Origin: Eubacteriales bacterium
GTDB taxonomy: Bacteria > Bacillota > Clostridia > Oscillospirales > Oscillospiraceae
Length of the DNA stretch: 33,308 nucleotides
Direction of reading: 5' to 3'
Assembly (NCBI GenBank): GCA_030533415.1
Contig: JAUNJE010000031.1
Coordinates: 1-33,308 of the forward strand
Shown here: in pieces, positions 1 to 12,917 of the stretch
Position numbering within the stretch: position 1 is the stretch's first letter
Layout: the number at the start of each line of letters is the position of its first letter
Made by a program: the position numbers and the translations under genes
Notes under the pieces: generated by a model
Databases searched by the model: none
What the model was told of the DNA's origin: nothing
The model's input: the letters and a program-made list of their open reading frames with translations, nothing else

Positions 1-52
1 AAAATCCATTGCCAGCGATGGCGTGCGGGTTCAAGTCCCGCCACCGGCACCA
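1..52 (+). tRNA. tRNA-Leu, 3' part only
   Basis: The window opens inside a tRNA. The T-arm (GCGGGTTCAAGTCCCGC), the acceptor strand CACCGGC, discriminator A and an encoded CCA at 50-52 are all visible. The short CCAT/ATGG stem just before the T-arm is a long variable arm, so this is a class II tRNA. The acceptor strand would pair with GCCGGTG, typical of bacterial tRNA-Leu. The anticodon lies outside the window, so the isotype is inferred and Ser is not fully excluded. Confidence 0.8.
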
Positions 53-196
53 TAATTGATAAACACTTTAGATGCAGCTTGCAAAAAGTTGACGGCTAAA
101 GTGTTTTTCAATTATTATGCGCTGATTTATTGGCATAAAAGTATACGAATTTCCCATAATTTGTGAACATGATTTGCAACGTGAAAATTGATGCAA
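53..196 (-). repeat. tRNA-associated repeat, copy 1 (inverted, diverged)
   Basis: Read on the minus strand this segment aligns along its whole length with 1280-1421 and 17173-17316, roughly three quarters identical by eye. It starts directly after the CCA of tRNA-Leu, as the 17173 copy starts directly after the CCA of tRNA-Lys. It contains the tRNA terminator plus about 90 bp of AT-rich sequence, and ends exactly where the IS66 terminal repeat begins. Confidence 0.8.
61..108 (+). terminator. Terminator after tRNA-Leu
   Basis: Arms AAACACTTTAG (61-71) and CTAAAGTGTTT (96-106) pair, with an inner stem around AACTTTTTGC, and are followed by T residues. The same stem recurs at 1370-1410 and 17262-17305. 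Confidence 0.75.
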
Positions 197-235
197 GTAA
201 GCGTCAAATAGTCCCGTACCATAGGTTAGGAAAAC

Positions 236-265
236 CGGTCACCAAAGTTAGCGTGGTGACCGGTT
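236..265 (-). terminator. Hairpin terminator behind the IS66 transposase remnant
   Basis: ACCGGTCACC and GGTGACCGGT form a perfect stem, followed on the minus strand by TTTTCC. It lies right after the stop of the transposase remnant. Confidence 0.6.
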
Positions 266-1206
266 ATTTACACTGCGCTTGCACCCGAGGGTTCCAAGGC
301 AGACATTCTTCTATTGCGGCTCCCTCGGGAAGATTCTCCAGCAAATAGAGGAAATATCGGAAGGGTCGAAGATGATTTGCTTTTGCGGTTTCCACTAGAG
401 AGTAAATCGCCGCACTGGCATCCGCCCCATTGGGAGTATTGCAGAACAGCCAGTTCTTACGTCCTACCGCAAATGGCCGAACGGAACGCTCCGCCCGGTT
501 ATTGGACAGTTCCAGCCGCCCGTCCAGGAAAACATTCCCCAGCCACTTTTCCTGGTTTACGGCATAAGTCAACGCCGTGCCGAGCATGCTTTTCGTCACG
601 GGGTTCTTTTTTGTTCCCTCTTTGCCCACGCGAAGAAGCTCTCCGCGATCGGCTCCGATTTTTCCAGTCTCAGCTGATACCGCTGCCTGGAATCATGGCC
701 TTGGGAACACCGCTTTTCTTCATGGGGGTATTCTGCCCTGTCTTTTCACATTGGCGGCAGCTATACACCGTTTGAATATGCTCACGCACTTTATACTGCG
801 CCGGAATGTACACCAATTCCCGCCGCAGGACTTCCTGCCCACAGGGGTGCAGCGGCCCGCCGCACTCCGGACAGACCTGTTCCGCCCCGGGCAATTCATG
901 GAGGATTCTCTCCGTGGGAAGGCTGGAAAGGTCCAACTCCCGTTTCCCTTTCTGTTTCTTTTTTCGGTAGACCACAGTCTCCGTTTCCTCAGTGGAAGGC
1001 TCCGCGCTGGCTTCTGTCTCATTGAAAAAAGACATTTGGTCAAGCAGTTCCGAGGTTCGTTCGCTGCCCGCGCCAAAACGCCGCCCTTGCATGAGCCGAA
1101 GCTGCTGTGTCAGCCAGTCCACCTGATGCTGCAGGGCGGTGATCTCTTCTTCCTTTTTGTCCAGTAGTGCCTGCCACTCGGCAGGACTTTTCTCATTCAA
1201 TTTCAT
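264..1206 (-). pseudogene. IS66 transposase (TnpC), deleted and frameshifted
   Basis: The N-terminal part (670-1206) has the IS66 leucine-zipper region (about residues 15-45, KEEEITALQHQVDWLTQQLR), a basic linker and a zinc-binding domain with CPECGGPLHPCG and CRQCEK. The C-terminal part (264-629) has the conserved tail LSNNRAERSVRPFAVGRKNW. Intact IS66 TnpC proteins are about 500 residues; the DDE catalytic core between these parts is missing. A frameshift near 615-625 also separates the segment reading FFAWAKREQKR from the PVTKSMLGT frame. The translated pieces total about 300 residues. It is a dead remnant; the homology is clear from conserved blocks. Confidence 0.85.
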
Positions 1207-1279
1207 AGGAAAATGATACAGAAGATACTGAAACTCTCTTTACCATGGGGGACAACGTACGGGTCTATTTGACGCTTAC

Positions 1280-1421
1280 GCATCTATGGATGCAGTAAAA
1301 ATCGTGTTCACAAATTTGGATAAATTCGTATATTTTTATGCCGATAAATCGGCGCAAATAATTGAAAACACTTTAGAAGCCAACTTTTTGCCAGTTGCAT
1401 CTAAAGTGTTGTTCAAGTATG
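1280..1421 (+). repeat. Island-flanking direct repeat, left copy (copy 2)
   Basis: This is identical to 17173-17316 except for two single-A length differences and one C/T change. It begins flush against the IS66 terminal repeat and ends at GTATG, where the right copy continues into the tRNA-Lys CCA. It includes the hairpin AACACTTTAG/CTAAAGTGTT. A further partial copy, AACACTTTAGATGCAG, follows at about 1431-1446. Confidence 0.9.
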
Positions 1422-1649: not shown

Positions 1650-2798
1650 TCAATCTTTTCCTTTATCAAACATTAAAGATAGTACTTCCATGTAGTCGTC
1701 CAAATAAACATCGATATTAGCTATTTTATTTACATGGTAGTATAACCGCTTACTATCGGTAAACATGACCATAATGTATTTTCCAAAATTAGAAAAATCT
1801 ATGCTTTGACTTGCTCTTATTTTTTCGATGTCTATAGTATTATTTGTCCTTTTATTTATTTCCTCCAATTCACCAATTGTTTTATTACATAAGTCGTATA
1901 CTGCCGCTTTTTTGCAAATGTCATTATTATATAATTCTGCTGTTAGAATCATCAACGCAAATATTTCGCGGTAAGTTATAGTTCCTTCTATGCCTGTCCC
2001 TTTGTCTCTGAAAGGTTGATATAGTATAGAATAAGGAAGCGTCATTGCAGTTATCAAAACATTTAGTGCCATGAGTTCAATTTCTTCTATAGTAAACTCA
2101 TTCAAGTATTCTTTGCAGCTAACAAGCCCTTGCAGTACAAGGGGAAACTCCTGAGCTAGCTTTTCTGATGCAAAGGTGTCAGCATCTATTTCATAGTCAC
2201 TGTTAGTATTATCACTTGCTTTCAATAAAGCAAATTTATTGTAATTATTCGAAATTTTTGCAATGTGACCTCTGACATGATGCCCAATCTCATGAAGGAC
2301 CAAAAAACGAAGGGCTGTCTCAGTTATCATATAGCTTAATACTCTTTCGTCCTTATACCCCAAGAGGCTATCATCGCTTCTTATTTCCAAAACACCTTCA
2401 TTGCCTATAAAAATCTTTTTAGGCTTAAATCTTTCCATTAGAAAATTGCTTTCGAATATTGAACCAATCATTAAATTGACATTATACTCGACTTCCGTTA
2501 TGCTTCCTATGTAAAGTCCTACGATCGGTATATTCTTTATGGAAGTGGCAATCGCATTTGTGCTACTATCATTTATAAGAATAAATTCCAAATCAGGTAA
2601 ATATTTCTTATCATTTTCATTTATGCCAAAAGGCAAGCTAAAATTATTTGGCTCATTTTCTCTATATTCATATCCGCTTACCCTTGTATCTGGCATAAAA
2701 ATGCATGGTTCAGTAACATCAATTAATTCGCCGTGCTTCTTTAAACAATCACTTATTTCAGAATCAGATAAAGTGACTTTTTCAGAAGATGAGCACAT
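1650..2798 (-). CDS. HEXXH zinc-metalloprotease-like protein
   Basis: A 382-residue protein of unknown role. The motif HEIGHH (about residues 169-174) sits in a hydrophobic helix (ALRFLVLHEIGHHVRGH). It is followed about 35 residues later by EIDAD (203-207), which fits the third zinc ligand of gluzincin-type peptidases such as the M48 or ImmA/IrrE-like groups. No signal peptide or clear membrane segment is visible, so it is probably cytosolic. The ATG chosen has AAAGG eight bases upstream; an in-frame GTG nine bases earlier lies on top of that site. The gene overlaps the stop of 2782-3387 by 17 bp, so the two are probably translated together. Its base composition is much more AT-rich than the rest of the window, suggesting separate acquisition. 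Family membership beyond a zinc peptidase fold is not claimed. Confidence 0.75.
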   Translation of the reverse strand: MCSSSEKVTLSDSEISDCLKKHGELIDVTEPCIFMPDTRVSGYEYRENEPNNFSLPFGINENDKKYLPDLEFILINDSSTNAIATSIKNIPIVGLYIGSITEVEYNVNLMIGSIFESNFLMERFKPKKIFIGNEGVLEIRSDDSLLGYKDERVLSYMITETALRFLVLHEIGHHVRGHIAKISNNYNKFALLKASDNTNSDYEIDADTFASEKLAQEFPLVLQGLVSCKEYLNEFTIEEIELMALNVLITAMTLPYSILYQPFRDKGTGIEGTITYREIFALMILTAELYNNDICKKAAVYDLCNKTIGELEEINKRTNNTIDIEKIRASQSIDFSNFGKYIMVMFTDSKRLYYHVNKIANIDVYLDDYMEVLSLMFDKGKD

Positions 2799-3387
2799 AC
2801 TTATCACCTTTTAATTTGATCACTTTTTTATTAATCATCGACTCTAAAGTCTTGTCAATCATTTCACTGTCTACCCATTTATTGCATGTTCCATCGTCAT
2901 TTAACTTTCCGCACTTCAAATTGTAATGAACAAAATTGCACTGACACGAATGCTTCAATTCATCTGAACTAAGAGCTTTTTCTTCCTTCAATTTATATGC
3001 GATACATTTTTCCATATCATCTAACTTTACTAAAGAATAATCCACACCAAGCATCGCCAATAAAAAGGAGGCAAATCCTTGCGAAACTGCTATGTCAAAT
3101 ATTAAACATATTAAAGCAAGCGTTGTATATTTTATATTTATATGGTATTTCTGATGGGCAAGCATAAGACCAAGCATGGCGGTACCATCAGAGCTTTTGT
3201 TCTTATCTTCAAATGAATCCGAAATATCCTCAACAAAACATTCATCATTTGATAGTAACGTTTTATTTTTATGTATTATACTGAACAACAAGTCAGCGTT
3301 TGCCTTATTATATGTAACACTTCCAATCATACAATTCTCAATTTGATTTGCTGTTCCCGTTTCTTTGAAATATTCGTTTGTTTTCAC
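2782..3387 (-). CDS. Cys-rich protein of unknown function, partner of the protease
   Basis: A 201-residue protein I do not recognise. The start is a GTG with GGGGG seven bases upstream; the longer frame back to 3447 has no good ribosome site. Around residues 88-115 there is a hydrophobic stretch (TTLALICLIFDIAVSQGFAS) that could be one membrane segment or a buried helix pair. A Cys/His cluster follows (CQCNFVHYNLKC, then C at DGTC), possibly metal-binding. The C-terminus (EMIDKTLESMINKKVIKLKG) resembles a winged-helix wing. It is first in a two-gene AT-rich operon with the HEXXH protein, so it may be a substrate, regulator or membrane partner of that enzyme; this is inference only. Confidence 0.7.
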   Translation of the reverse strand: MKTNEYFKETGTANQIENCMIGSVTYNKANADLLFSIIHKNKTLLSNDECFVEDISDSFEDKNKSSDGTAMLGLMLAHQKYHINIKYTTLALICLIFDIAVSQGFASFLLAMLGVDYSLVKLDDMEKCIAYKLKEEKALSSDELKHSCQCNFVHYNLKCGKLNDDGTCNKWVDSEMIDKTLESMINKKVIKLKGDKYVLIF

Positions 3388-3418
3388 ATAAATTCCCCCT
3401 GTAAATAAAGTAATAGCT

Positions 3419-3556
3419 ATAAATGAGTAAATCTGAATATTGCACAAATTTGTCCGTAAAGAGAAAACAAATTGGCTTGAATCAGAGGTACTTGCCTTTG
3501 GAGGAAGGAGAAAACACCTTGCTTTTTGTGCATATTGTGAATTTGCTCATTTATAA
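3419..3556 (-). repeat. Imperfect long inverted repeat in the protease-operon leader
   Basis: The segment at 3419-3447 (CTATAAATGAGTAAAT...TTGCAC) and the segment at 3528-3556 are imperfect reverse complements over 29 bases, about 20 matching, separated by 80 bases. Both arms lie in the expected 5' leader of the 3387 gene, between its promoter and start. It could fold into a long hairpin in RNA, or be the trace of a small mobile element. Confidence 0.5.
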
Positions 3557-3584
3557 ATTATATCATGCTTCCGCCAATAATCAA
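3557..3584 (-). promoter_or_regulatory. Promoter of the AT-rich protease operon
   Basis: On the minus strand: TTGATT (3579-3584), a 16-bp spacer and TATAAT (3557-3562). The spacer holds GGCGGAAGC, shared with the antitoxin promoter at 8227-8254, which has the same 16-bp spacing. Transcription would start near 3550 and give a leader of about 160 bases before the GTG at 3387. Confidence 0.6.
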
Positions 3585-3760
3585 GAACATAGTTTTGGTA
3601 TTTCCGTTTTTTCCTTCATCAGGCTGATTCTACCGGACCTCCGGTTAATCACTTTTCCCAATATATGCCGTGTATCCTCCAGTGAGAATTGCATCTTTAT
3701 TACTATCGCATGGAGACAATCCGCTTCTCCATGGATATCGGACAGAACATATTGGGGCAT
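3581..3760 (-). pseudogene. Serine/threonine phosphatase (metallophosphoesterase) N-terminal remnant
   Basis: A 59-codon open frame starts MPQYVLSDIHGEAD, the metal-binding DxH block of PPP-type phosphatases. The next expected block, GDxxDRG, is degraded to GKVINRR, losing the metal and phosphate ligands, and the frame then stops. Full enzymes of this type are about 200-250 residues. AAGGGAGC precedes the ATG. It lies 30 bp downstream of the DUF1016-like gene in the same direction. It is almost certainly non-functional as a phosphatase. Confidence 0.65.
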
Positions 3761-3789: not shown

Positions 3790-4332
3790 CTAGTATTTGT
3801 GCTTGTGAATCATATACCGGATTTTCCTCACAATGCCGAGTAGATTATGGGTGTTATCTGCAGTCACCTTATTTTGCTGTTTTTCACTATAACACACATC
3901 ATCCCCAATAGCGAGAACAATTTTCTCATGTGCATTGTCCGCAATGTTTTCAGTCAGCTCTACCTTGGACCAGCCAAACTGCTTCGCTGCCCGGAGATAC
4001 CATTCACGCAGTTCCCTGGGCAAGTCCGCTTCCATAATCACCACATTCTGTGTCCAGCCGATCTGCAACGCAAAAGTCAACAGAGCAGGATAGTTTTCAT
4101 AGGTACGGTAGAAATCCCGCATCCGGCGGACATTCCGGGGAGAGAAACCGTGAACATCCGGATAACGCTCAGTAAGGTACTTTGCCGCCGCGACAGCAGC
4201 ACCTTTTTCGGGGTGCTGGCTTACTGCCTTGCCAATGGCACAGTACAGCTCCATTTGCCCCATTTTAGATGCCATTGCATGATCAAGGGCGGCGTACATA
4301 TCCCTGTAATCGATGTTCTTTCGGATGTTCAT
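3790..4332 (-). CDS. DUF1016/YhcG N-terminal-domain protein
   Basis: 180 residues. The block FSPRNVRRMRDFYRTYENYP...ALQIGWTQNVVIMEADLPRELREWYLRAAKQFGWSK is the N-terminal (DUF1016_N) domain of YhcG-like proteins. In full-length members this domain is followed by a PDDEXK nuclease domain, which is absent here, so the gene is either a stand-alone form or a truncation. The last 30 residues (NKVTADNTHNLLGIVRKIRY) do not look like part of the family. The start ATG has GGAGGG six bases upstream; the longer frame lacks a ribosome site. It follows the ligase gene by 54 bp on the same strand, so it probably belongs to the Ku-ligase operon. Confidence 0.75.
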   Translation of the reverse strand: MNIRKNIDYRDMYAALDHAMASKMGQMELYCAIGKAVSQHPEKGAAVAAAKYLTERYPDVHGFSPRNVRRMRDFYRTYENYPALLTFALQIGWTQNVVIMEADLPRELREWYLRAAKQFGWSKVELTENIADNAHEKIVLAIGDDVCYSEKQQNKVTADNTHNLLGIVRKIRYMIHKHKY

Positions 4333-4386
4333 TTGTTTCCCTCCTGCATAATGATTTTGGGAGTGCTGGTAGTTCAGCACTCCCGT

Positions 4387-5325
4387 TTAATCTTCGAGAC
4401 ATTCCTTCGGCTGCTTGTTTGTCCTCAGCCCTTTGAACACGGGCTGGCGCAGGCTGCCGCTTTCGGTTTTCATCATATATTTTACGGTGCAGACCAGTTG
4501 GGGCTGCACCCATACCGCGTTTTCATTTCCATCCGGGACATTCATTGGTGGATAATTGATCTTTGGAAGATCCCGGATCTTTCGGAAGGACTCTCCGCCT
4601 ACTCCCAGAGTCACATGGCCTTTGTAGATGAGCTGCCCGTCCCGGTACTGTCCCAGAACAATACTGGTCATGTGATTCTCCTTTGGAATGTACCCGCAGA
4701 CCACATAATCGGAGTCCTTGAGATTCTTGCACTTGATCCAGTCCTTTGTCCGCTTATCAAAATAATACCGGCTGTCCTTCCGTTTCGCAACGATTCCCTC
4801 CAGATTTTGCTGCTCAGCCAATCGGTAAAAAGCAACGCCATGTCTTTCAATCGGACGGGATACTGCGAAACGGGCGGATTCTTCCCGGACAACACTTTCC
4901 AGCAGCTTCTTTCGCTCCGTCAGGGGCAGATCCGTCACCGGGTGATCTTCATAATACAGGATATCAAAGGCAGTGAAGCAGGCCGGGTGCCGCTGGGCTT
5001 CCAGCTCGATCTTCATGGGATTGGACATCATAGAGCGCTTCTGAATCAGGAAGAAGTCCGGCTTTCCCGCATGGATGACTGCCAGCTCCCCATCCAGAAT
5101 GCAGCGGCATTTGACCTGCTTGTGGATCTGGGACAGTTCCGGCACTTTGGGAAGCATTTTCATGTTCCGCTTGTTCCGAAGATCCGTCCCATCCCCATCC
5201 AGATAGGCAATACACCGCTCTCCATCCAGCTTCAGCTCATACAGATACTCATGGGAGTCAAAGGCTTCTCCTTCCACGCCGATCAGCATGGGTTTGATGT
5301 TCTTTTCCCGGAACAGGTCACCCAT
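4387..5325 (-). CDS. ligD: ATP-dependent DNA ligase, LigD ligase-domain type (NHEJ)
   Basis: 312 residues. It seals nicks and breaks with ATP; in bacteria this form works with Ku in non-homologous end joining. Nucleotidyltransferase motifs are in order: motif I ELKLDGER with catalytic Lys at 32, LDGEL at 78-82, FDILYYE at 120-126, motif IV LEGIVAKR at 175-182 and motif V WIKCK at 196-200, then an OB-fold region (VCGYIPKEN, VGGESFRKIRDL). It has only the ligase part; the polymerase and phosphoesterase domains of long LigD proteins are missing. The ATG overlaps the Ku stop by 8 bp, so it is translationally coupled to ku. No damage is seen. Confidence 0.92.
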   Translation of the reverse strand: MGDLFREKNIKPMLIGVEGEAFDSHEYLYELKLDGERCIAYLDGDGTDLRNKRNMKMLPKVPELSQIHKQVKCRCILDGELAVIHAGKPDFFLIQKRSMMSNPMKIELEAQRHPACFTAFDILYYEDHPVTDLPLTERKKLLESVVREESARFAVSRPIERHGVAFYRLAEQQNLEGIVAKRKDSRYYFDKRTKDWIKCKNLKDSDYVVCGYIPKENHMTSIVLGQYRDGQLIYKGHVTLGVGGESFRKIRDLPKINYPPMNVPDGNENAVWVQPQLVCTVKYMMKTESGSLRQPVFKGLRTNKQPKECLED

Positions 5326-6085
5326 CGGACCGCACCTTTGCGAGGCTCTGCTTCAGTGCCTCCATAATATCGATGACATTGACCTGAACGTTCTCCGCTG
5401 GGGTGGTGATCTCCCTGCCCTGGATCTTCTGCTGAATGATCTGCCACAGCTTGGATTTGTATTCATCCTTGTACTGCTCCGGACGGAAGGGCTGAACCAT
5501 AGCGCTGATAAGCGTTTTTGCCATGGTCAGCTCCGCGTCCTGGATTGCGGGAGGCGTCAGTTCCTTGGGTGCTTCCTTGACTTCCTCCGCGAAGAACAAG
5601 GTTTCAATCAAAATGCCGTCATCAGTGGGGATCAGGGCCAGCAGCTTTTCCCGGGTGCCCATGACCGTCTTGGCGATGGCCACCTTGTTTTCCTCCTTCA
5701 TAGCCCGGCGCAGCAGCTCAAAAGCCTTATCGCCGCCCTGCTCCGGGACGGCGTGATAGGTCTTATCGTAATAGATGGGGCGGATATCCTGCAGATCTGT
5801 GAAGTGGAGAATGTGGATGGTCTTGTCCTTTTCGGATTTGGCTTTTTCAAAGTCATCCTCCGTCATGGTCACAAACTTTCCCTTCTCATACTCAAAACCC
5901 TTGACAATATCCCCGGAGCCGATCTCCTTGCCGCATCCGGAACAGACTTTTTTATACTTCACCCGGCTGCCATCTTCCTTGCAAAGTTGGTTGAAGTGGA
6001 TATCATTGTCCTGGGTAGCCGTGTAAAGTCCCACCGGGATATGCACCATGCCAAAGGATATGGCGCCTCTGTGTGATACTGCCAT
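5318..6085 (-). CDS. ku: Ku protein (NHEJ DNA-end binding)
   Basis: 255 residues, the normal size for bacterial Ku, a homodimer that rings broken DNA ends and recruits the ligase. It starts MAVSHRGAISFGMVHIPVGLY and continues with FNQLCKEDGSRVKYKKVC and GCGKEI, which match the Ku core; later DKTYHAVPEQGGDKAFELLRRAM and the C-terminal helical part are also typical. The ATG used has GAGGTG six bases upstream; a GTG three codons earlier lies on the ribosome site itself. It is the first gene of the ku-ligase pair, with an 8-bp overlap. The frame is intact, in contrast to the broken methyltransferase just upstream. Confidence 0.93.
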   Translation of the reverse strand: MAVSHRGAISFGMVHIPVGLYTATQDNDIHFNQLCKEDGSRVKYKKVCSGCGKEIGSGDIVKGFEYEKGKFVTMTEDDFEKAKSEKDKTIHILHFTDLQDIRPIYYDKTYHAVPEQGGDKAFELLRRAMKEENKVAIAKTVMGTREKLLALIPTDDGILIETLFFAEEVKEAPKELTPPAIQDAELTMAKTLISAMVQPFRPEQYKDEYKSKLWQIIQQKIQGREITTPAENVQVNVIDIMEALKQSLAKVRSDG

Positions 6086-6138
6086 TTTGTACACCTCAAT
6101 TCTTTTTTGATAGTGTACCCAATTCTGTTTTTCTCATA

Positions 6139-7821
6139 TCAAGGCCAAGCCTTTTGGGGAAGAACTGTGACCACAATCATACATCGTTCCCGCCTCCTGC
6201 GGTTCTCCCGCAGCACCAGTGCGATCCCCCGCATAACGAACTCCACGCAAGGAATCGCCACACTGTTGCCCAGGGCTTTGTAACGGGCGGAATCAGAGGC
6301 GGATGAGATGTTTGTCCACCCGTCTGGGAACCCCTGCAAACGCTCGCACTCAAGGGGCGTCAGGCGGCGAATCAGGCTCGGGCCGTCCACGATACACTTG
6401 TCATCACTGACATACTGGTTGCTGATACCTTTATGGTCGGAGCGAACCAGTGTACCCACCATCTGCTGGTAGGGCTGGACTACCAGATCCGTGGCATCCT
6501 TATGCTGGCGGGCGCTTTCGGTACTGACCACATCATTCTCCTGAAACACATCCACCCGTTGGCGGCTGTAGACCGCGTGGTGGTCGGAGGTTGTAACGGT
6601 ATAGGCGATGTTCTCCTGACAGCCCAGTCCGTTGCCGCCGTTCTCCGGCTCCCGGTCAATGGTATTGCCAGAAATACAGTAGACATCCGGCATTTCTTCT
6701 ACAAGCGGAAGATTGTTCCCGCCAGTACCACCCCGGGCGGATAGTGTGGGTACAATATTATGGGGGCCGGTGTACCGGGCATCGATACCGTGATTCTCAT
6801 AGACAAGGGGCTGGTGGCTGTGCATCTGTGCCCGGAGGGTGCCGGTGATGTTTTCCGTGCAGTCCATAACCTGTCCGCCCTGGTCATTCAGGCACAGAAC
6901 ACTTGGAGATTCCTGCCCCGCGCCGCAGGCTACAAAGGTCTGCTGCTTCATTCCCGGGTTGACCCCCAGAGAGCCAGCCACATCGTGCAGATCCCGGACT
7001 TCATCCCGCTGATTGGCAGCAAACGCAGCCGCATGGAATCCTGCCGCTGGTTCACCGGGACAGTTCCTCAGCCCTGTCTGGATCTCAAGCGCCTGCCGGA
7101 GCTGGGGTGGTAATGGCTTGCCCCGCTCAGATGCCCGCCGCAGGATACCCTGGCACGCTTTCCTGGTCAAAAAGTATTTGGGGTGCGGATGTTCCTCCAA
7201 AATCTGCCACAAGATAGATCCTTTTGCGTCTCTGGGGGACACCCCAGTATTGGCTGTCCAGGACGCGCCACGCCAGGGAGAAAGAATCTCCCAATAGAAT
7301 TCGTCCAGCAGGTTCCCAGCGCCCGGTGTAAGGTCCAGGGACAGAAACGGAATCGAAACAAATTCGGAGGATCTCCTCGAGGACGATGCGGAAATCTTCC
7401 CCCTTGGGCGTTCCGCTGGAGAAGGCTCCTGGGACATTTTCCCAGACCATGTATCTTGGCCGAATAAACTGATTTGTTCTTCCCTGCAGTTTGTCAGCGT
7501 TTCTCATCTCCCTTACGATTCGTGTTTGTTCCATAAACAGGCCGGAGCGGGCACCAGCTAAGCCAGCGCGCGCCCCGGCCACAGACAGTCCTGGCAAGGA
7601 CTGCCCCCACAAATAATATCTACCGGCGGTAACTTTGCTCCGTCCAGTTTTGTGATGTCCCCCACATGGATCATGTCGGGGAACCGCAGCTTGGTCACTT
7701 CCATGGGGAAGGCTTCAATTTCGCTTGCCCACACCGGGCGGATGCCGTTTCGTACCGCCGCTAGGGGAAAGCCGCCAATCCCATCAAAGAGGCTGCCCAT
7801 GGTTAATTCATCGTTGGTGAT
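6139..7821 (-). pseudogene. DNA (cytosine-5) methyltransferase, two frameshifts
   Basis: Three consecutive frames together give one C5-methyltransferase. The N-terminal frame has motif I MGSLFDGIGGFPLAA and the catalytic PCQ motif (GGSPCQD). The middle frame (7127-7612) has ENVPGAF and QRRKRIYLVADF. The C-terminal frame (6139-7437) has the variable target-recognition region, then RRLTPLECERLQGFPDGW and RYKALGNSVAIPC. The frame is lost once near 7588, where one C seems missing after CAGGA, and again near 7150, where one extra T fits. The expected start codon near 7821 reads ATC, eight bases after GGAG; an ATG at 7800 lacks a ribosome site. As read it cannot make a full enzyme. Consensus error is possible but two separate shifts make decay more likely. 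Confidence 0.8.
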
Positions 7822-8056
7822 AAAACCATCTCCATTTCTTAGATTTTTCGCTATTTTGTTTGACAACATCCGCCAATTCTGATAAAATATACCCGGTTCC
7901 ACTTGGAACCGGGCGCTGTCATAATAGATTGAGGTGTGATTGCCACCGGCAATCAAAGAATTCTGATTCGCTGCGCGGAGCACCACGTGTAGGCGGTTAA
8001 CCCCCACTTTAGGGGGCAGCTTCTTCGCCCCCTGATCATACGAAAGGGGGGGCTGC
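7822..8056. other. Gap with hairpins upstream of the toxin
   Basis: No gene is seen. It holds a perfect 9-bp hairpin, CCCGGTTCC/GGAACCGGG (7892-7913), and a second hairpin, CCCCC...GGGGG, near 7998-8017. The latter is followed by more G and C runs just ahead of the toxin start, so the toxin mRNA probably has a folded 5' leader. Confidence 0.5.
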
Positions 8057-8143
8057 ATGATGAGTACATCCGAAGTTTTTCAACTTTGCCTTGTTATCAT
8101 TGGCGTTATCAGCCTCGTTTTACAGGCTACAAAGAAGAAGTAA
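8057..8143 (+). CDS. Holin-like type I toxin, 28 aa
   Basis: A tiny membrane protein, MMSTSEVFQLCLVIIG followed by VISLVLQATKKK. It has the layout of the putative holin-like toxin family (Hol-Tox, related in style to TxpA and BsrG): a short polar start, one membrane helix (residues 7-23) and a Lys-rich tail. AAAGGGGGGG precedes the two ATGs (8057 and 8060). The stop is followed at once by the AAGTAACCGC/GCGGTTACTT hairpin typical of these loci. A strong promoter on the other strand (8227-8254) would make an RNA overlapping its 3' end. Members of this family depolarise membranes when overproduced; here the role is probably element stabilisation. It is one of the few intact plus-strand genes in the island. 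Confidence 0.8.
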   Translation: MMSTSEVFQLCLVIIGVISLVLQATKKK

Positions 8144-8220
8144 CCGCCCTGGCCACCAACCTAGCGGTTACTTCATCGCAATGTTAGGGGGCTAACCGTC
8201 TATTGGCAGCGCCCTTTTCT
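8126..8220 (-). ncRNA. Predicted antisense antitoxin RNA of the holin-like toxin
   Basis: The RNA would start near 8220 from the promoter at 8227-8254 and run leftward through an AGGGGGC/GCGCCCT hairpin (about 8186-8214) into the toxin 3' end. The stem AAGTAACCGC/GCGGTTACTT (8138-8173) followed by TTCTTTG on this strand could terminate it. This convergent 3' overlap is the usual layout of type I systems of this family. The ends are estimated. Confidence 0.6.
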
Positions 8221-8226
8221 ATTGTT

Positions 8227-8254
8227 ATTATACCACGCTTCCGCCGAAAGTCAA
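8227..8254 (-). promoter_or_regulatory. Antitoxin promoter
   Basis: Minus strand: TTGACT (8249-8254), a 16-bp spacer TTCGGCGGAAGCGTGG and TATAAT (8227-8232). This is near-consensus. No protein gene lies close downstream on this strand. Confidence 0.75.
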
Positions 8255-8270
8255 GTGCGGGAGCGTGGTT

Positions 8271-9877
8271 TTATATTTGCCACTGGATCTCTGTTCCATT
8301 TGCCAGGCATACCAGGATACGTTCAGCGGAAAGCACTTTTACCGTATGTACCAGCTGCCGGATCAGGTTGTCATCCCACTGGGTAAGATGAGGGGAATAG
8401 CCTCTCAGCAGATCCTTTGTCACCTGGATCCGATCATAGGCCGTACCCTGTTCTCGAAGGTAAGCCTCCAGTGCGTCCCGCTGCTGTTTCAGCGATGCCA
8501 GTTCCTCGGTGTTAGCGCGGAACTGCCCGGTGTAGTCAGCGTTTGGATCCTCAGCTGCTTTTTGAAGCAGGCCGCAGAAGGTATTCTCCAATTTTTGAAT
8601 TTTGTTCTTTATCTCTCCCAGTGGCACCTGCTCTCCCGGTAAGCAGACGGTTTCCTCTACCGTTGTATCAACAATCTGATCCGCCAGTGATTTCTTGGGA
8701 CTCATCACGGAGTTGACCGCCTCCAGAATTGCCCGCTGGAGCGGTTCCTCGTCCAGGGTGGGGGAGTTGTGGCAGTATTTCTTTCCGTAGTCCAACCGGC
8801 TGATGCACCGCCAGACAACCCGCTTTTTTCCGTCCCGCTTCCAGCTGCACCTTCGGTACAGCGTCCCACACTCTCCGCACACCAGCCGCTCCGACAGCGC
8901 GTATTTGCTGGTGTAGCAGGAGCGGCCTGTGGGAGCCTGCTTGAGGGAGGGGCTTTTGAGAGCATTGCGCCTTGCCAGCTCCGCCTGGGCTGCGTTATAG
9001 GCATCCCGGCTGATAATGGCCGGGTGATTGTCCCGTACCAGATACATGGGAAGCTGGCCGACACCACCTTCTTGCTGATACAGTCGGAAACATAGGTTTT
9101 CTGCATCAGCACGTCCCCACAGTATTTTTCATTCAGCAGGACCGCCCGGACGGCGGGCATGGTCCATTTCTTTTCATTCCGGTAGGGAACGCCCTTTGCG
9201 TTTAGCTCCTCCTGGATCATCCGCAGGCTGTCTCCCATTCGAAACCGTTCAAATATCTTATCCACGACGGCTCCTTCTTCGGGAATAATTTGGGGATCCC
9301 CGTTCGCATCGATACAGTACCCGTAGAGTTTTTCGAACTGTACATGGGTTTTGCCCTCCCGCATGGCCTGACGTTTGCCCCAGGAGACATTCTTGGAGAT
9401 GGATTCGCTTTCCGACTGGGCGAAGGCTCCCAGCAGGGTGATAATCAGCTCACTGTCGGACTCCAATGTGTTGATGTTCTCCTTTTCAAATACCACGCCG
9501 ATGCCCAGCCTCTTCAGAATGCGGATGTATTTCAGGCAGTCCACCGTGTTCCGGGCGAACCGGGAGATGGACTTGGTCAGGATCAGGTCGATCTTCTTCT
9601 GCTTGCACATGTGGATCATGTGCAGGAATTCGGGACGCTTCTTGGCGGAGGTGCCGGTGATGCCCTCATCGGCAAAGATGCCCGCCATGGTCCACTCTGG
9701 GTTGGTCATGATCTTGCCGGTGTAATAGCTGCACTGGGCCTCATAGCTGGACTGCTGTTCTTCTTCCTCAGTGGATACCCGGCAGTAGGCGGCCACCCGG
9801 AGCTGCCGCCGCATAGCCTGATGGGGGGCAAACGGCTTTGCCGGAATGATGGTTACGGTTTTCTTTCTTTCGCTCAT
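8271..9877 (-). pseudogene. Large serine recombinase, frameshifted (third of three)
   Basis: The first frame (from 9877) has the resolvase catalytic domain with nucleophile Ser35 in AAYCRVST, then DEGITGTSAKKRPEF and KSISRFARNTVDCLKYIR, and the recombinase domain (YGYCIDANGDPQIIPEEG...LLNEKYCGDVLMQKTY). Near 9050-9065 the frame breaks after SDCISKKVV; the rest (8271-9047: MYLVRDNHPAIISRDAYNAAQ, zinc ribbon CGECG...C, and coiled coil) continues in another frame. One missing base explains it. Together it would be about 535 residues, the normal size. Its ATG overlaps the stop of 9874-10629 by four bases (ATGA). It is probably inactive unless the shift is a sequencing error or is bypassed. Confidence 0.85.
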
Positions 9878-10629
9878 GGTACACTCTCCTTTCCGATGAT
9901 CTGGCCATTCTTTAGCTTGACGGTGACTGCACCGTTTCCGTCCACGATAACAGTGCGGACAGCCTGACGAATCACTTCCGCGTCTAATTCGGACATAGGT
10001 TTTTGTTCTTGGAACAATTTCTGAAGACGCTGGGTTTCATATTCTTCCGAGCCAATGGTTTCGTACCGTGCCGACGCCAGGTCAAAAATGGTCTTTTCCG
10101 CCTGTTCCTCGTCTACGGGCAGCTGCCGGAGCAAATCGTCTACGGTGGCTTCCAGGGCGGTCACGGCGGGGCTGCTTCCTGCTGGCGTGCTTGGAGACTG
10201 AATCAATGATGGTGATTGGATCAGCTTATTCAGCAAAGCCAAGACTTCCAATTCTATCTGTGGGAAAACTTTGTAATTACATTTCTGCCGCAGGAGCTTC
10301 TGTGCCTGGGTCTGCTGGATGGGGGCAGAGCGCTTGCTCCGTTTTTCCGTGACGCTCTGAAACAGGGTGAAGGGGATCAGCTGCGGGTAGGGGGGAAGAC
10401 CTGTATACCGTCCGTCTGCTAAGATTCTTGCAATCATGTTCTTGTTCCATGGCTTGTCCCCATCATAGGGGATGCCCCATTCCTTCATGGCGTTGGTCAG
10501 ATCCAGAAAGGATTTTCCCTGGTCATATTCCCGGAATAGATACCGCACCGCGGAGGCTTCCTCCGGGTGGATCACGATCTGACCCAGCTCCATTTTGTAG
10601 CCGAATGGCTGCTTTCGGTTGCTGCCCAT
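9874..10629 (-). CDS. Recombinase-domain protein lacking the catalytic domain
   Basis: 251 residues. It has the middle recombinase (DNA-binding) domain of large serine recombinases: PFGYKMELGQIVIHPEEASAVRYLFREYDQGKSFLDLTNAMKEWGIPYDGDKPWNKNMIARILADGRYTG, in register with its neighbours. It starts directly with this domain, so the resolvase domain with the catalytic serine is absent. The zinc ribbon is also reduced, and a helical C-terminal part ends VIVDGNGAVTVKLKNGQIIG. It overlaps both neighbours (TAATG at 10629, ATGA at 9874). It may act as an accessory or directionality subunit bound to one site; this is inference from the layout. Confidence 0.8.
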   Translation of the reverse strand: MGSNRKQPFGYKMELGQIVIHPEEASAVRYLFREYDQGKSFLDLTNAMKEWGIPYDGDKPWNKNMIARILADGRYTGLPPYPQLIPFTLFQSVTEKRSKRSAPIQQTQAQKLLRQKCNYKVFPQIELEVLALLNKLIQSPSLIQSPSTPAGSSPAVTALEATVDDLLRQLPVDEEQAEKTIFDLASARYETIGSEEYETQRLQKLFQEQKPMSELDAEVIRQAVRTVIVDGNGAVTVKLKNGQIIGKESVP

Positions 10630-12200
10630 TACCGCACCGTCCTTTCGATTTGCTCCGGTAGCTCCAGCCCATTGATAAGCCGGAAGCGGATCCGCTCATT
10701 GCTTTCCACAATGATTTTCTCAACCAACTCGCGGAACAGTTCCCCATCGAAGGAATCCAGATTTTCCGGCCCGTACTCGAGAATTTCCATCAGCTCACGG
10801 GTTTTGGAGAGGGCGTCGTTTCCGTCCCGCTCCAGGAGTTTCTCTTTCTGCCGCTTTGCCTTGCGGAGCTGCTGCGCCAGTTGGTTGGTTTGGGATATAA
10901 AAATGTCAGGGTCAACGGCTCCCTGCTGGTTCAGCACGGTAAGCATGTGACTCTGACTGGATAGGTTGGATATTTGTTTGTTGAGTTCGATCACGTCTGG
11001 GTGCCACAGCATCTGGCGGCTACGGACGGCAATGAGAGAATCCTTTAGCTCCCTGAGGAGATTTCCGTGTTTCAGCTTGTAGTAACAGCGGAGAAATGCT
11101 TGCGTAATTTCATCTTCAGGAATTTGTGTAATGGTACAGTTTCGTGTTCTTTTTTTGTCACGGCCAATACAAGCCCAATATACGATGTCATTGACAACCT
11201 TTCTTCGGAACGTTGCTCCACAGCACCCACACTGGATTTTTTCCCGGTAGGGGGCATTTTCCGCCTTTTCTCGGATAATGCGTTGTGAGCGGCTTTCCAA
11301 CAGAAGATTGGCTTGCTGAAATACTTCCTCACTGATAATAGCGGGGTGGGTGTTTTTCACAAAATAGGAATCCACGCTCCCGTCATTCTTTAGGCTTCGG
11401 AATGGAAGGGTATCTGTTGTATAGTATTTTTGCCAGAGAGAGTCTCCCGTATATTTCTCATTGCTTAGAATATACCGAACGGAAGATGCATCCCAAGCAC
11501 ATTTTCCATTTTTACAGGGTATCTTTTCTTCCCGTAAGGCTTTGGCGATATTCTCTGTGCTGACGCCTGACAAATATTCCTCAAATATGCGTTTTACAAT
11601 CGCTGCCTGATTAGGTTCTGCTTCAATGTAATTCCCGTTTCGAATATATCCATAGGGGAGATAATGCGGTATGAAATCGCCGTTCTGCATTCGCTTTAGG
11701 TAGCTCCACCTCATATTTTGGGAAATGGATTCACTTTCCGCCTGGGCGCAGGAGGCCAGTACAGCGGTCAGCATTTCCCCGGATACCACGCTGGTGTCAA
11801 TGTTCTGCTCATCAAAGACCACGCTGATGCCCAGGGCTTTCAGCTCGCGAATGGCTTTCAGGCAGTCCGTCGTGTTTCTTGCGAACCGGGAGATGGACTT
11901 GACCAGCACCTTATCGATCTTGCCTTTGCGGCAGTCCGAAAGCAGGCGCTGAAAGTCGGGGCGCTTCTTGGCGGAGGTGCCGGTGATGCCCTCGTCGGCA
12001 TAAATGTCTACCAGTGTCCAGTTTTCCTTGCCGGTGATGAGTGCCGTGTAGTAGGCATTCTGGGCGGCGAAGCTGTTCTTCTGGTCTTCCGAATCCGAGC
12101 TGACCCGGCAGTAAGCCGCGACCCTCAGCTGGATGGTTTCCGGCGCTTGATTCGCCGGGATGACAATCGTTTTTCTCGCAAGGTTATCTGCCGCTGCCAT
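10629..12200 (-). CDS. Large serine recombinase (integrase), intact (first of three)
   Basis: 523 residues, the one complete recombinase here. N-terminal resolvase domain: AAYCRVSS with nucleophile Ser at about 34, DEGITGTSAKKRPDFQRLL, KSISRFARNTTDCLKAIREL and the CAQAESESISQNMRWS helix. The recombinase domain covers about residues 180-290 (YLPYGYIRNGNYIEAEPNQAAIVKRIF...SNEKYTGD). A zinc ribbon follows (CGCCGATFRRK...WACIGRDKK...C), then a long coiled coil and the C-terminal RIRFRLINGLELP. Such enzymes cut and exchange attachment sites with a 2-bp crossover. The ATG has AGGAGGTG six bases upstream. It is the first of a coupled trio and probably the element's own integrase. Confidence 0.92.
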   Translation of the reverse strand: MAAADNLARKTIVIPANQAPETIQLRVAAYCRVSSDSEDQKNSFAAQNAYYTALITGKENWTLVDIYADEGITGTSAKKRPDFQRLLSDCRKGKIDKVLVKSISRFARNTTDCLKAIRELKALGISVVFDEQNIDTSVVSGEMLTAVLASCAQAESESISQNMRWSYLKRMQNGDFIPHYLPYGYIRNGNYIEAEPNQAAIVKRIFEEYLSGVSTENIAKALREEKIPCKNGKCAWDASSVRYILSNEKYTGDSLWQKYYTTDTLPFRSLKNDGSVDSYFVKNTHPAIISEEVFQQANLLLESRSQRIIREKAENAPYREKIQCGCCGATFRRKVVNDIVYWACIGRDKKRTRNCTITQIPEDEITQAFLRCYYKLKHGNLLRELKDSLIAVRSRQMLWHPDVIELNKQISNLSSQSHMLTVLNQQGAVDPDIFISQTNQLAQQLRKAKRQKEKLLERDGNDALSKTRELMEILEYGPENLDSFDGELFRELVEKIIVESNERIRFRLINGLELPEQIERTVR

Positions 12201-12272
12201 GAACTTCACCTCCTGTCAGCAACACACAATACCACACTCTTTTTCATAAAGCTAGTGATTTTCTGAACTTTT

Positions 12273-12486: not shown

Positions 12487-12917
12487 CCCTTCTGAAATTT
12501 GAATGTTTACAACAGCCTGTATTTGACACTACTTCCCCAGGCAAGGGCAGAAGCGGAAACCGCGCCTGGCCGCGCGTCACGGGACTTTCACCCCTCCGAG
12601 GATCTCTCCGAGCTGCCCCTTTCGGGACAGGAGTACCAACGTTGGTGCTGTCATCGCAAGACAGACCGGCCATGATCTGCTTCCTGGACGGTTGGACCCG
12701 CTCACCACCTTATTTGCCGCTTTCATGCAGATTCTCTGCACAGGTGGGTCACCGCGCTCCCTCCAGTGTCGCTTGCCCATTCTCTGTCTATACAAGGCAC
12801 ACCAACGGATGTATTTCCGTTTCTGGATATTTACTTGAGAAGGTTCACGGGGGTAGGATTGCTTTTTTATGCCCCTCACTACTTATCCAGTTTCAGAGAC
12901 ACTTTGAAAACAAAAAT
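12487..12917 (-). other. Non-coding stretch, possibly a structured RNA
   Basis: About 430 bp between the sigma-like gene and the terminator. No convincing gene is seen; a 100-codon frame starting GTG at 12879 has unusual composition and no clear family. Read on the minus strand it is rich in stems: CCCGAAAGGGG near 12615, GGGTGAAAGTCCCG near 12585, GCGCGGCCAGGCGCGG, and a palindrome ACCAACGTTGGT at 12634-12645. Its density of small stems and its GTGAAAGTCC element suggest a folded RNA, perhaps a group II intron-like remnant; no reverse transcriptase is present. Confidence 0.35.

Follow-up and report, generated by a model that had tools for sequence, protein, structure and literature searches.

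What kind of system is encoded by two overlapping, AT-rich genes in a 33,308-nucleotide stretch of DNA from an Eubacteriales bacterium (the window), and does it belong among the many forms of bacterial immunity? A reading made from the sequence alone had seen a HEXXH metalloprotease-like protein encoded beside a Cys-rich partner, a pairing that matched no system it could name and that could be a defense, toxin-antidote or regulated-proteolysis module. Positions of the features discussed below are collected in Table 1.

Table 1. Features of the gene pair, of its products and of the surroundings in which it or its relatives lie.
Feature	Position	Strand	Remarks
Partner gene	window 3387-2782	-	201 aa, GTG start
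Peptidase (HEXXH) gene	window 2798-1650	-	382 aa from ATG 2798
Gene overlap	window 2782-2798	-	17 bp; same length in L001
Promoter-like site	window 3557-3584	-	TTGATT-16-TATAAT, TG before the -10; consensus match only
Inverted-repeat leader	window 3418-3555	-	138 bp; 31-nt arms, 74% complementary
Putative M78-like core	peptidase residues about 100-235		385-aa numbering; HEIGHH 172-177, ExxADxFA 206-213
Partner parts	partner residues		helical N-terminal part; hydrophobic core about 88-115; Cys C148/C150/C159/C168; possibly winged-helix C-terminus
DUF1016_N piece	window 3790-4335		next upstream; Pfam 2.3e-20, PADLOC PDC-S02 2.9e-24
Ku and ATP-dependent DNA ligase genes	window 4387-6094	-	bacterial end-joining pair, 8-bp overlap, beside DUF1016_N piece
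IS66-type remnant	window 51-1421		inverted arms 51-107 and 1365-1421
IS66 transposase in two pieces	window 264-629, 670-1206		inside the inverted arms
Serine recombinase genes	window 8271-12209	-	10629-12209 with all three expected domains; 8271-10629 further pieces
pemK cis-regulatory RNA	window 12577-12642	-	Rfam, 54.6 bits
G757 defense cluster	L010 4042-7917 and L043 301-5825		Helicase-DUF2290, truncated partner relative, IetAS, Avs3a-like piece

The layout itself suggests translational coupling through the 17-bp overlap, a figure that assumes ATG 2798 as the peptidase start (the alternative GTG at 2807 gives 385 residues). The G+C content of the two genes, 0.32 and 0.33, stands against 0.50-0.53 in flanks measured as kilobase windows covering 1-1500 and 4001-6000, with the low-G+C stretch extending from about 1450 to about 3650. 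Both the overlap, given the ATG start, and the sharp contrast in composition had been claimed at first sight and are borne out. As to the shared promoter proposed at the same time, the best minus-strand promoter-like site upstream of the pair (3584-3557) has 10 of 12 consensus matches and an extended -10, and a weaker one lies at 3688-3660; such sites are hardly more frequent here than in shuffled sequence (20 on both strands versus 12.6, sd 3.9). Between the better site and the partner gene sits the inverted-repeat leader, which is single copy in the genome, has no match in Rfam, folds with a z-score of -1.5 (16 of 200 shuffles fold as well) and was not seen upstream of the second known copy of the pair. 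A 59-aa frame at 3581-3760 on the minus strand, starting MPQYVLSDIHGE, ends near the AT-rich junction; it may be what is left of a metallophosphatase N-terminus (PDB phmmer E no better than 0.48), and the cassette could have inserted into or next to that metallophosphatase-like gene. At the other side, base 1 falls in a stretch (1-51) read as a tRNA gene 3' end, which ARAGORN did not call; this end, the IS66 remnant, the pair and the recombinases follow in that order, which makes the earlier placement of the pair at an island's end plausible.

That second copy came from one search of genome contigs, in which 1 of 30 pattern matches encoded a relative. It lies, in the same gene order, in locus L001 of a metagenome-assembled genome of an uncultured Clostridia bacterium, isolate Lapin-002 (Lapin is taken to mean rabbit). 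Identity to the window is 73% for the peptidase and 68% for the partner, and in L001 the genes again overlap by exactly 17 bp, with the second start preceded by the same Shine-Dalgarno-like AAAAGGT. Divergence is mostly synonymous, with dN/dS (NG86, window versus L001) of 0.15 for the peptidase (0.145/0.966) and 0.20 for the partner (0.178/0.886); four estimators span 0.11-0.35, a rough estimate from one sequence pair. Both predicted reading frames are kept. Beyond the genes, the comparison took in 413 bases on the upstream side of the window pair and 449 on the downstream side. Upstream, nothing aligned better than the ribosome-binding region (score 28, against a mean of 21 and a maximum of 29 in 100 shuffles); downstream similarity amounts to a 10-base match. 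Since the two loci cease to resemble each other at the DNA level close to where the pair ends, the two genes form a conserved unit that behaves as a cassette, and on present sequence evidence they are a real module.

Profile searches place the HEXXH core of the peptidase closest to ImmA/IrrE (M78) proteins, although its Pfam M78 score (PF06114, 12.7 bits, E 0.12) is below the cut-off of 22. HEIGH (172-176) and ExxAD (206-210, both in 385-aa numbering) are kept in L001. Among 20,000 shuffled versions of the protein, a single one had HExxH followed 20-60 residues on by E..[AH][ND] (HExxH alone appeared in 0.7%), so the zinc-peptidase motif with a fitting third ligand picked out by the sequence-only reading is well founded. 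ExxAD is not exclusive to M78, as M48 peptidases have it also. PHROG_87 (metallo-protease) matched the window peptidase at 2.9e-7 and the L001 copy at 8.8e-10, PHROG_1914 matched at 2e-6, these alignments spanning 66-134 residues, and the best PADLOC match was capP (1.1e-4); these scores are evidence independent of motif choice. In hhalign comparisons, the probability was 96.7 over 66 columns for a set of seven proteins read as ImmA-like and 83% over 16 columns for a protein read as M48-like. Six of the seven had been hand-picked from 25 loci by the motif HEIGHHxxGH, and the seventh, L004 (Pfam M78 2.8e-7), the only one of them scanned and found to be M78, by the peptidase profile itself; the M48-like protein and a U49-like one considered below were also chosen by that motif. 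The motif part of the hhalign scores is therefore not independent evidence. Neither the first 100 nor the last 150 residues of the peptidase matched anything convincingly, the best PHROG match in the C-terminal part being PHROG_25652 at 0.05. Two PDB matches (0.01-0.024) to a calcium-binding protein, covering residues after the HEXXH motif, were set aside.

For the partner, searches of Pfam, NCBIfam and PADLOC all came up empty and PHROG gave only 0.026 and 0.16; no HTH family in any of these profile sets matched it. With no family above its curated cut-off in Pfam or NCBIfam for either protein, neither falls into a housekeeping family, and the initial impression that the pairing corresponds to no known system is upheld. 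Four partner relatives share Y81, I83, N84, K86, T89, D98, G104, A106, G114, E126 and C128, giving a core signature YxINxKx[TA]T...D...GxA...G...E[KR]C; C150 and C168 are invariant too, and the spacing of the Cys cluster varies. The hydrophobic core reaches a Kyte-Doolittle value of 2.0 over 19 residues (1.6-2.0 for the best such window in each of the four), and many of the invariant columns fall in this stretch and the E(K/R)C motif that follows it. Of the partner features first described, the hydrophobic core and the four clustered Cys are present, but the winged-helix-like tail is suggested only by a pattern in a poor model (helix-helix-strand-strand in the last third, pLDDT blocks 47-66). 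A WH_GDS1 match for L006, the L009 relative, was at chance level (0.13). AlphaFold2 models from two-row alignments had mean pLDDT 38.7 for the partner and 32.1 for the peptidase, too poor for use, and no fold is claimed for either protein on that account.

Both genes are rare. At E 0.001 the peptidase was matched in 1 of 136 genus genomes and in 2 of 300, 2 of 391 and 1 of 358 genomes of the family, class and phylum samples; the samples overlap, and the genome of origin is one match in each. The extra matches (G232, 2.7e-4; G580, 9.6e-5), both short and weak, come from different metallopeptidase-like proteins: L004 from G580, the M78 protein mentioned above, and L003 from G232, which stays under every Pfam cut-off (best M48, 0.0037), were set aside. 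The partner was matched in 4 of the 391 class genomes, namely its own, G755 (4.5e-13), G757 (1.8e-10) and G558 (8.6e-5), the last a chance match to a protein that reads as tRNA(Ile)-lysidine-synthetase-like (0.39 with a four-row profile). That four-row profile found only the genome of origin among 358 phylum genomes and only the starting genome among 14 in the family of G757 and among 22 in that of G755. Neither G755 nor G757 had a peptidase match in the class-sample search at E 0.001.

The peptidase is thus known in two places, with the partner beside it in both; homologues always found apart, which would have spoken against a module, is not the pattern seen. The partner is known in four, and in two of these, L009 (G755) and L010 (G757, where it is 5'-truncated next to a frame read as transposase-like), it lacks the peptidase and so is not strictly dependent on it. 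In viral contigs, searched by a method that reaches mostly close relatives, no relative was confirmed among 4, 70, 65, 82 and 15 candidate stretches. The 25 viral loci with HEIGHHxxGH, of which only L039 fell below 0.001 against the peptidase profile (4.7e-5), were read as ImmA-like, M48-like or chance frames, the one scanned being L025 (U49). Plasmids and phages held no peptidase match at 1e-5, no partner match at E 1 and no match to the L010 relative at 0.1; plasmids held none to the L009 relative at 0.1. At E 10 the peptidase matched 1,444 plasmid records, and the 20 listed comprise 13 ImmA/IrrE proteins, 4 Tn3 transposases and 3 without an annotated gene. A literature search by titles and abstract starts found no description of the pair.

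Where relatives do occur, defense genes are often close by. The L001 pair directly follows genes for SIR2 (PADLOC 3.9e-97), HerA (3.3e-235) and an Mrr-like protein just under its Pfam cut-off (7.8e-4, 20.0 bits versus 21), all on the same strand; the neighbors at 173-1318 and 7718-8758 had no PADLOC match. The partner relative of G757 has a helicase gene (3.5e-147) and DUF2290 (7.7e-22) about 600 bp away on the other strand, IetA (1.7e-73) at about 4.9 kb, IetS (3.2e-35) at 5.9 kb and an Avs3a-like N-terminal piece (1.1e-78) at 8.9 kb. Of two neighboring proteins tested in L009, neither matched PADLOC and one also lacked a Pfam match. In the window, the DUF1016_N piece and cytosine methylase pieces lie upstream of the pair, with serine recombinases beyond; Ku and ligase had no PADLOC match there. 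The defense genes beside the pair thus differ between L001 and the window and are upstream of it in both. As a raw count, three of the four partner loci have defense-gene surroundings, and the earlier suspicion of a link with defense gains from the L001 and L010 neighborhoods. The best explanation of these patterns is a two-gene accessory module that would travel as a cassette and settle near defense genes. It lies outside the family libraries used here, and its surroundings appear to favor defense; known from only two copies, and with neither a fold nor a target, it is a good candidate rather than a discovery.

How such a module might act is a further question. Our preferred answer, held tentatively, is regulated proteolysis in the manner of ImmR/ImmA or CapH/CapP, though with a partner of another type and without an evident target operon. 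The upstream gene would encode a small protein, a regulator or sensor, that combines a Cys cluster with a DNA-binding-like C-terminus; an M78-like zinc peptidase, encoded by the overlapping gene downstream, would most likely cut this partner or be checked by it, and a stress or phage signal would change the partner's action, as in those two systems. Catalysis, the partner as substrate, DNA binding, trigger and output are what we infer in this scheme. It is put first because the gene order, the overlap and the core of the peptidase are reminiscent of ImmR/ImmA and CapH/CapP, and because partner genes are also found with no peptidase beside them, which suits a self-acting protein better than a dedicated inhibitor. 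Counting against it are the lack of an adjacent operon common to both pair loci, the place of the recognized defense genes upstream of the pair in both, the pair's own promoter-like site, the partner without an HTH family match, a peptidase of about 382 residues with long unmatched regions, two poor models, only two known copies and several neighbors without a PADLOC match.

Alternatively, the peptidase itself could act as effector in a stand-alone abortive-infection or toxin-antidote module, cutting a host protein on a phage trigger as Lit does, with the partner inhibiting it or sensing phage. We regard this as rather unlikely and place it second because the cassette moves without a common target operon, DNA similarity ending near its edges; the defense-gene surroundings of the peptidase also suit such an effector. 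The NCBIfam Lit model NF007238 gives a weak match (E 0.023, 13.9 bits versus a cut-off of 274) that is collinear, peptidase residues 164-219 aligning with model positions 163-206, and hhalign reaches 94.1% over 46 columns for the U49-like viral protein (Pfam U49), although Pfam U49 (PF10463) itself does not match the peptidase, which by profile resembles the ImmA-like set more strongly and over a longer stretch. The partner without a peptidase in two of four places also argues against a Lit-like effector, as does the case of TnSmu1 immRA, labelled toxin-antitoxin by a database and concluded by its authors to be otherwise, in the part of the report drawn on here (PMC10233336). That case also implies that gene layout alone says little about function.

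Improbable, in our estimate, is an ordinary accessory pair of a mobile element whose role has nothing to do with phages, for example control of the element's own genes. Serine recombinases, the IS66 remnant and gene pieces surround the window pair, and passages of PMC10233336 name several mobile elements that carry ImmRA-like modules. Against an accessory role, the seven proteins scanned in the 13-kb L001 locus include no recombinase or transposase, and three of them are SIR2, HerA and the Mrr-like protein.

The boldest of these readings, and a very improbable one, is a membrane-active partner freed when the peptidase removes its Cys/winged-helix part, in the way of protease-activated pore formers: the conserved hydrophobicity of all four relatives, the invariant columns in and after it and a peptidase-less relative near defense genes would suit this, but an Asp is conserved within the core, whose length is scant for crossing a membrane twice, a helical hairpin in solution would fit equally, and the partner has neither fold nor family match.

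It is likewise doubtful, though worth stating, that the partner founds a new family of defense components that sense or execute alone, and that here a co-translated zinc peptidase would switch it on by cutting. If regulated proteolysis is the right mechanism, peptidase-controlled switching in defense islands would use partners beyond the classic HTH repressors, and the range of regulated-proteolysis systems would be wider. Meanwhile the core signature offers a handle on a family that is near defense systems in three of its four known places and absent from the libraries searched.

Lit, according to part of PMC3014915, is a zinc metalloprotease of the HEXXH type and cleaves EF-Tu when phage T4 infects the cell. 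The peptidase here has its HEXXH about as far from the N-terminus and shares the phage-defense setting, but it fails the U49/Lit models, and in each of its two known loci a partner gene accompanies it. Lit is not known to need a partner gene.

The immR-immA genes form a two-gene operon with the metalloprotease downstream, and inducing TnSmu1 ImmA affected the growth of E. coli only slightly, as sections of PMC10233336 describe. ImmR/ImmA (ICEBs1, TnSmu1) and IrrE-DdrO (M78) have in common with the pair the HExxH and ExxA[DN] core and the order of regulator, then peptidase; unlike them, the peptidase here has extra N- and C-terminal regions and falls below the Pfam M78 cut-off, and its partner differs by profile from an HTH repressor.

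CapH/CapP, the controller of CBASS and other systems, involves activation of CapP on ssDNA binding and cleavage of CapH, and controllers of this type adjoin the operon that they control, at least in the portion of PMC13373217 consulted. Here, by contrast, no adjacent immune operon is common to both loci, the partner has a hydrophobic core and a Cys cluster with no HTH family match, and the peptidase has long unmatched regions. What the two share is a two-gene unit of regulator and peptidase set among defense genes, with capP the best PADLOC match of the peptidase.
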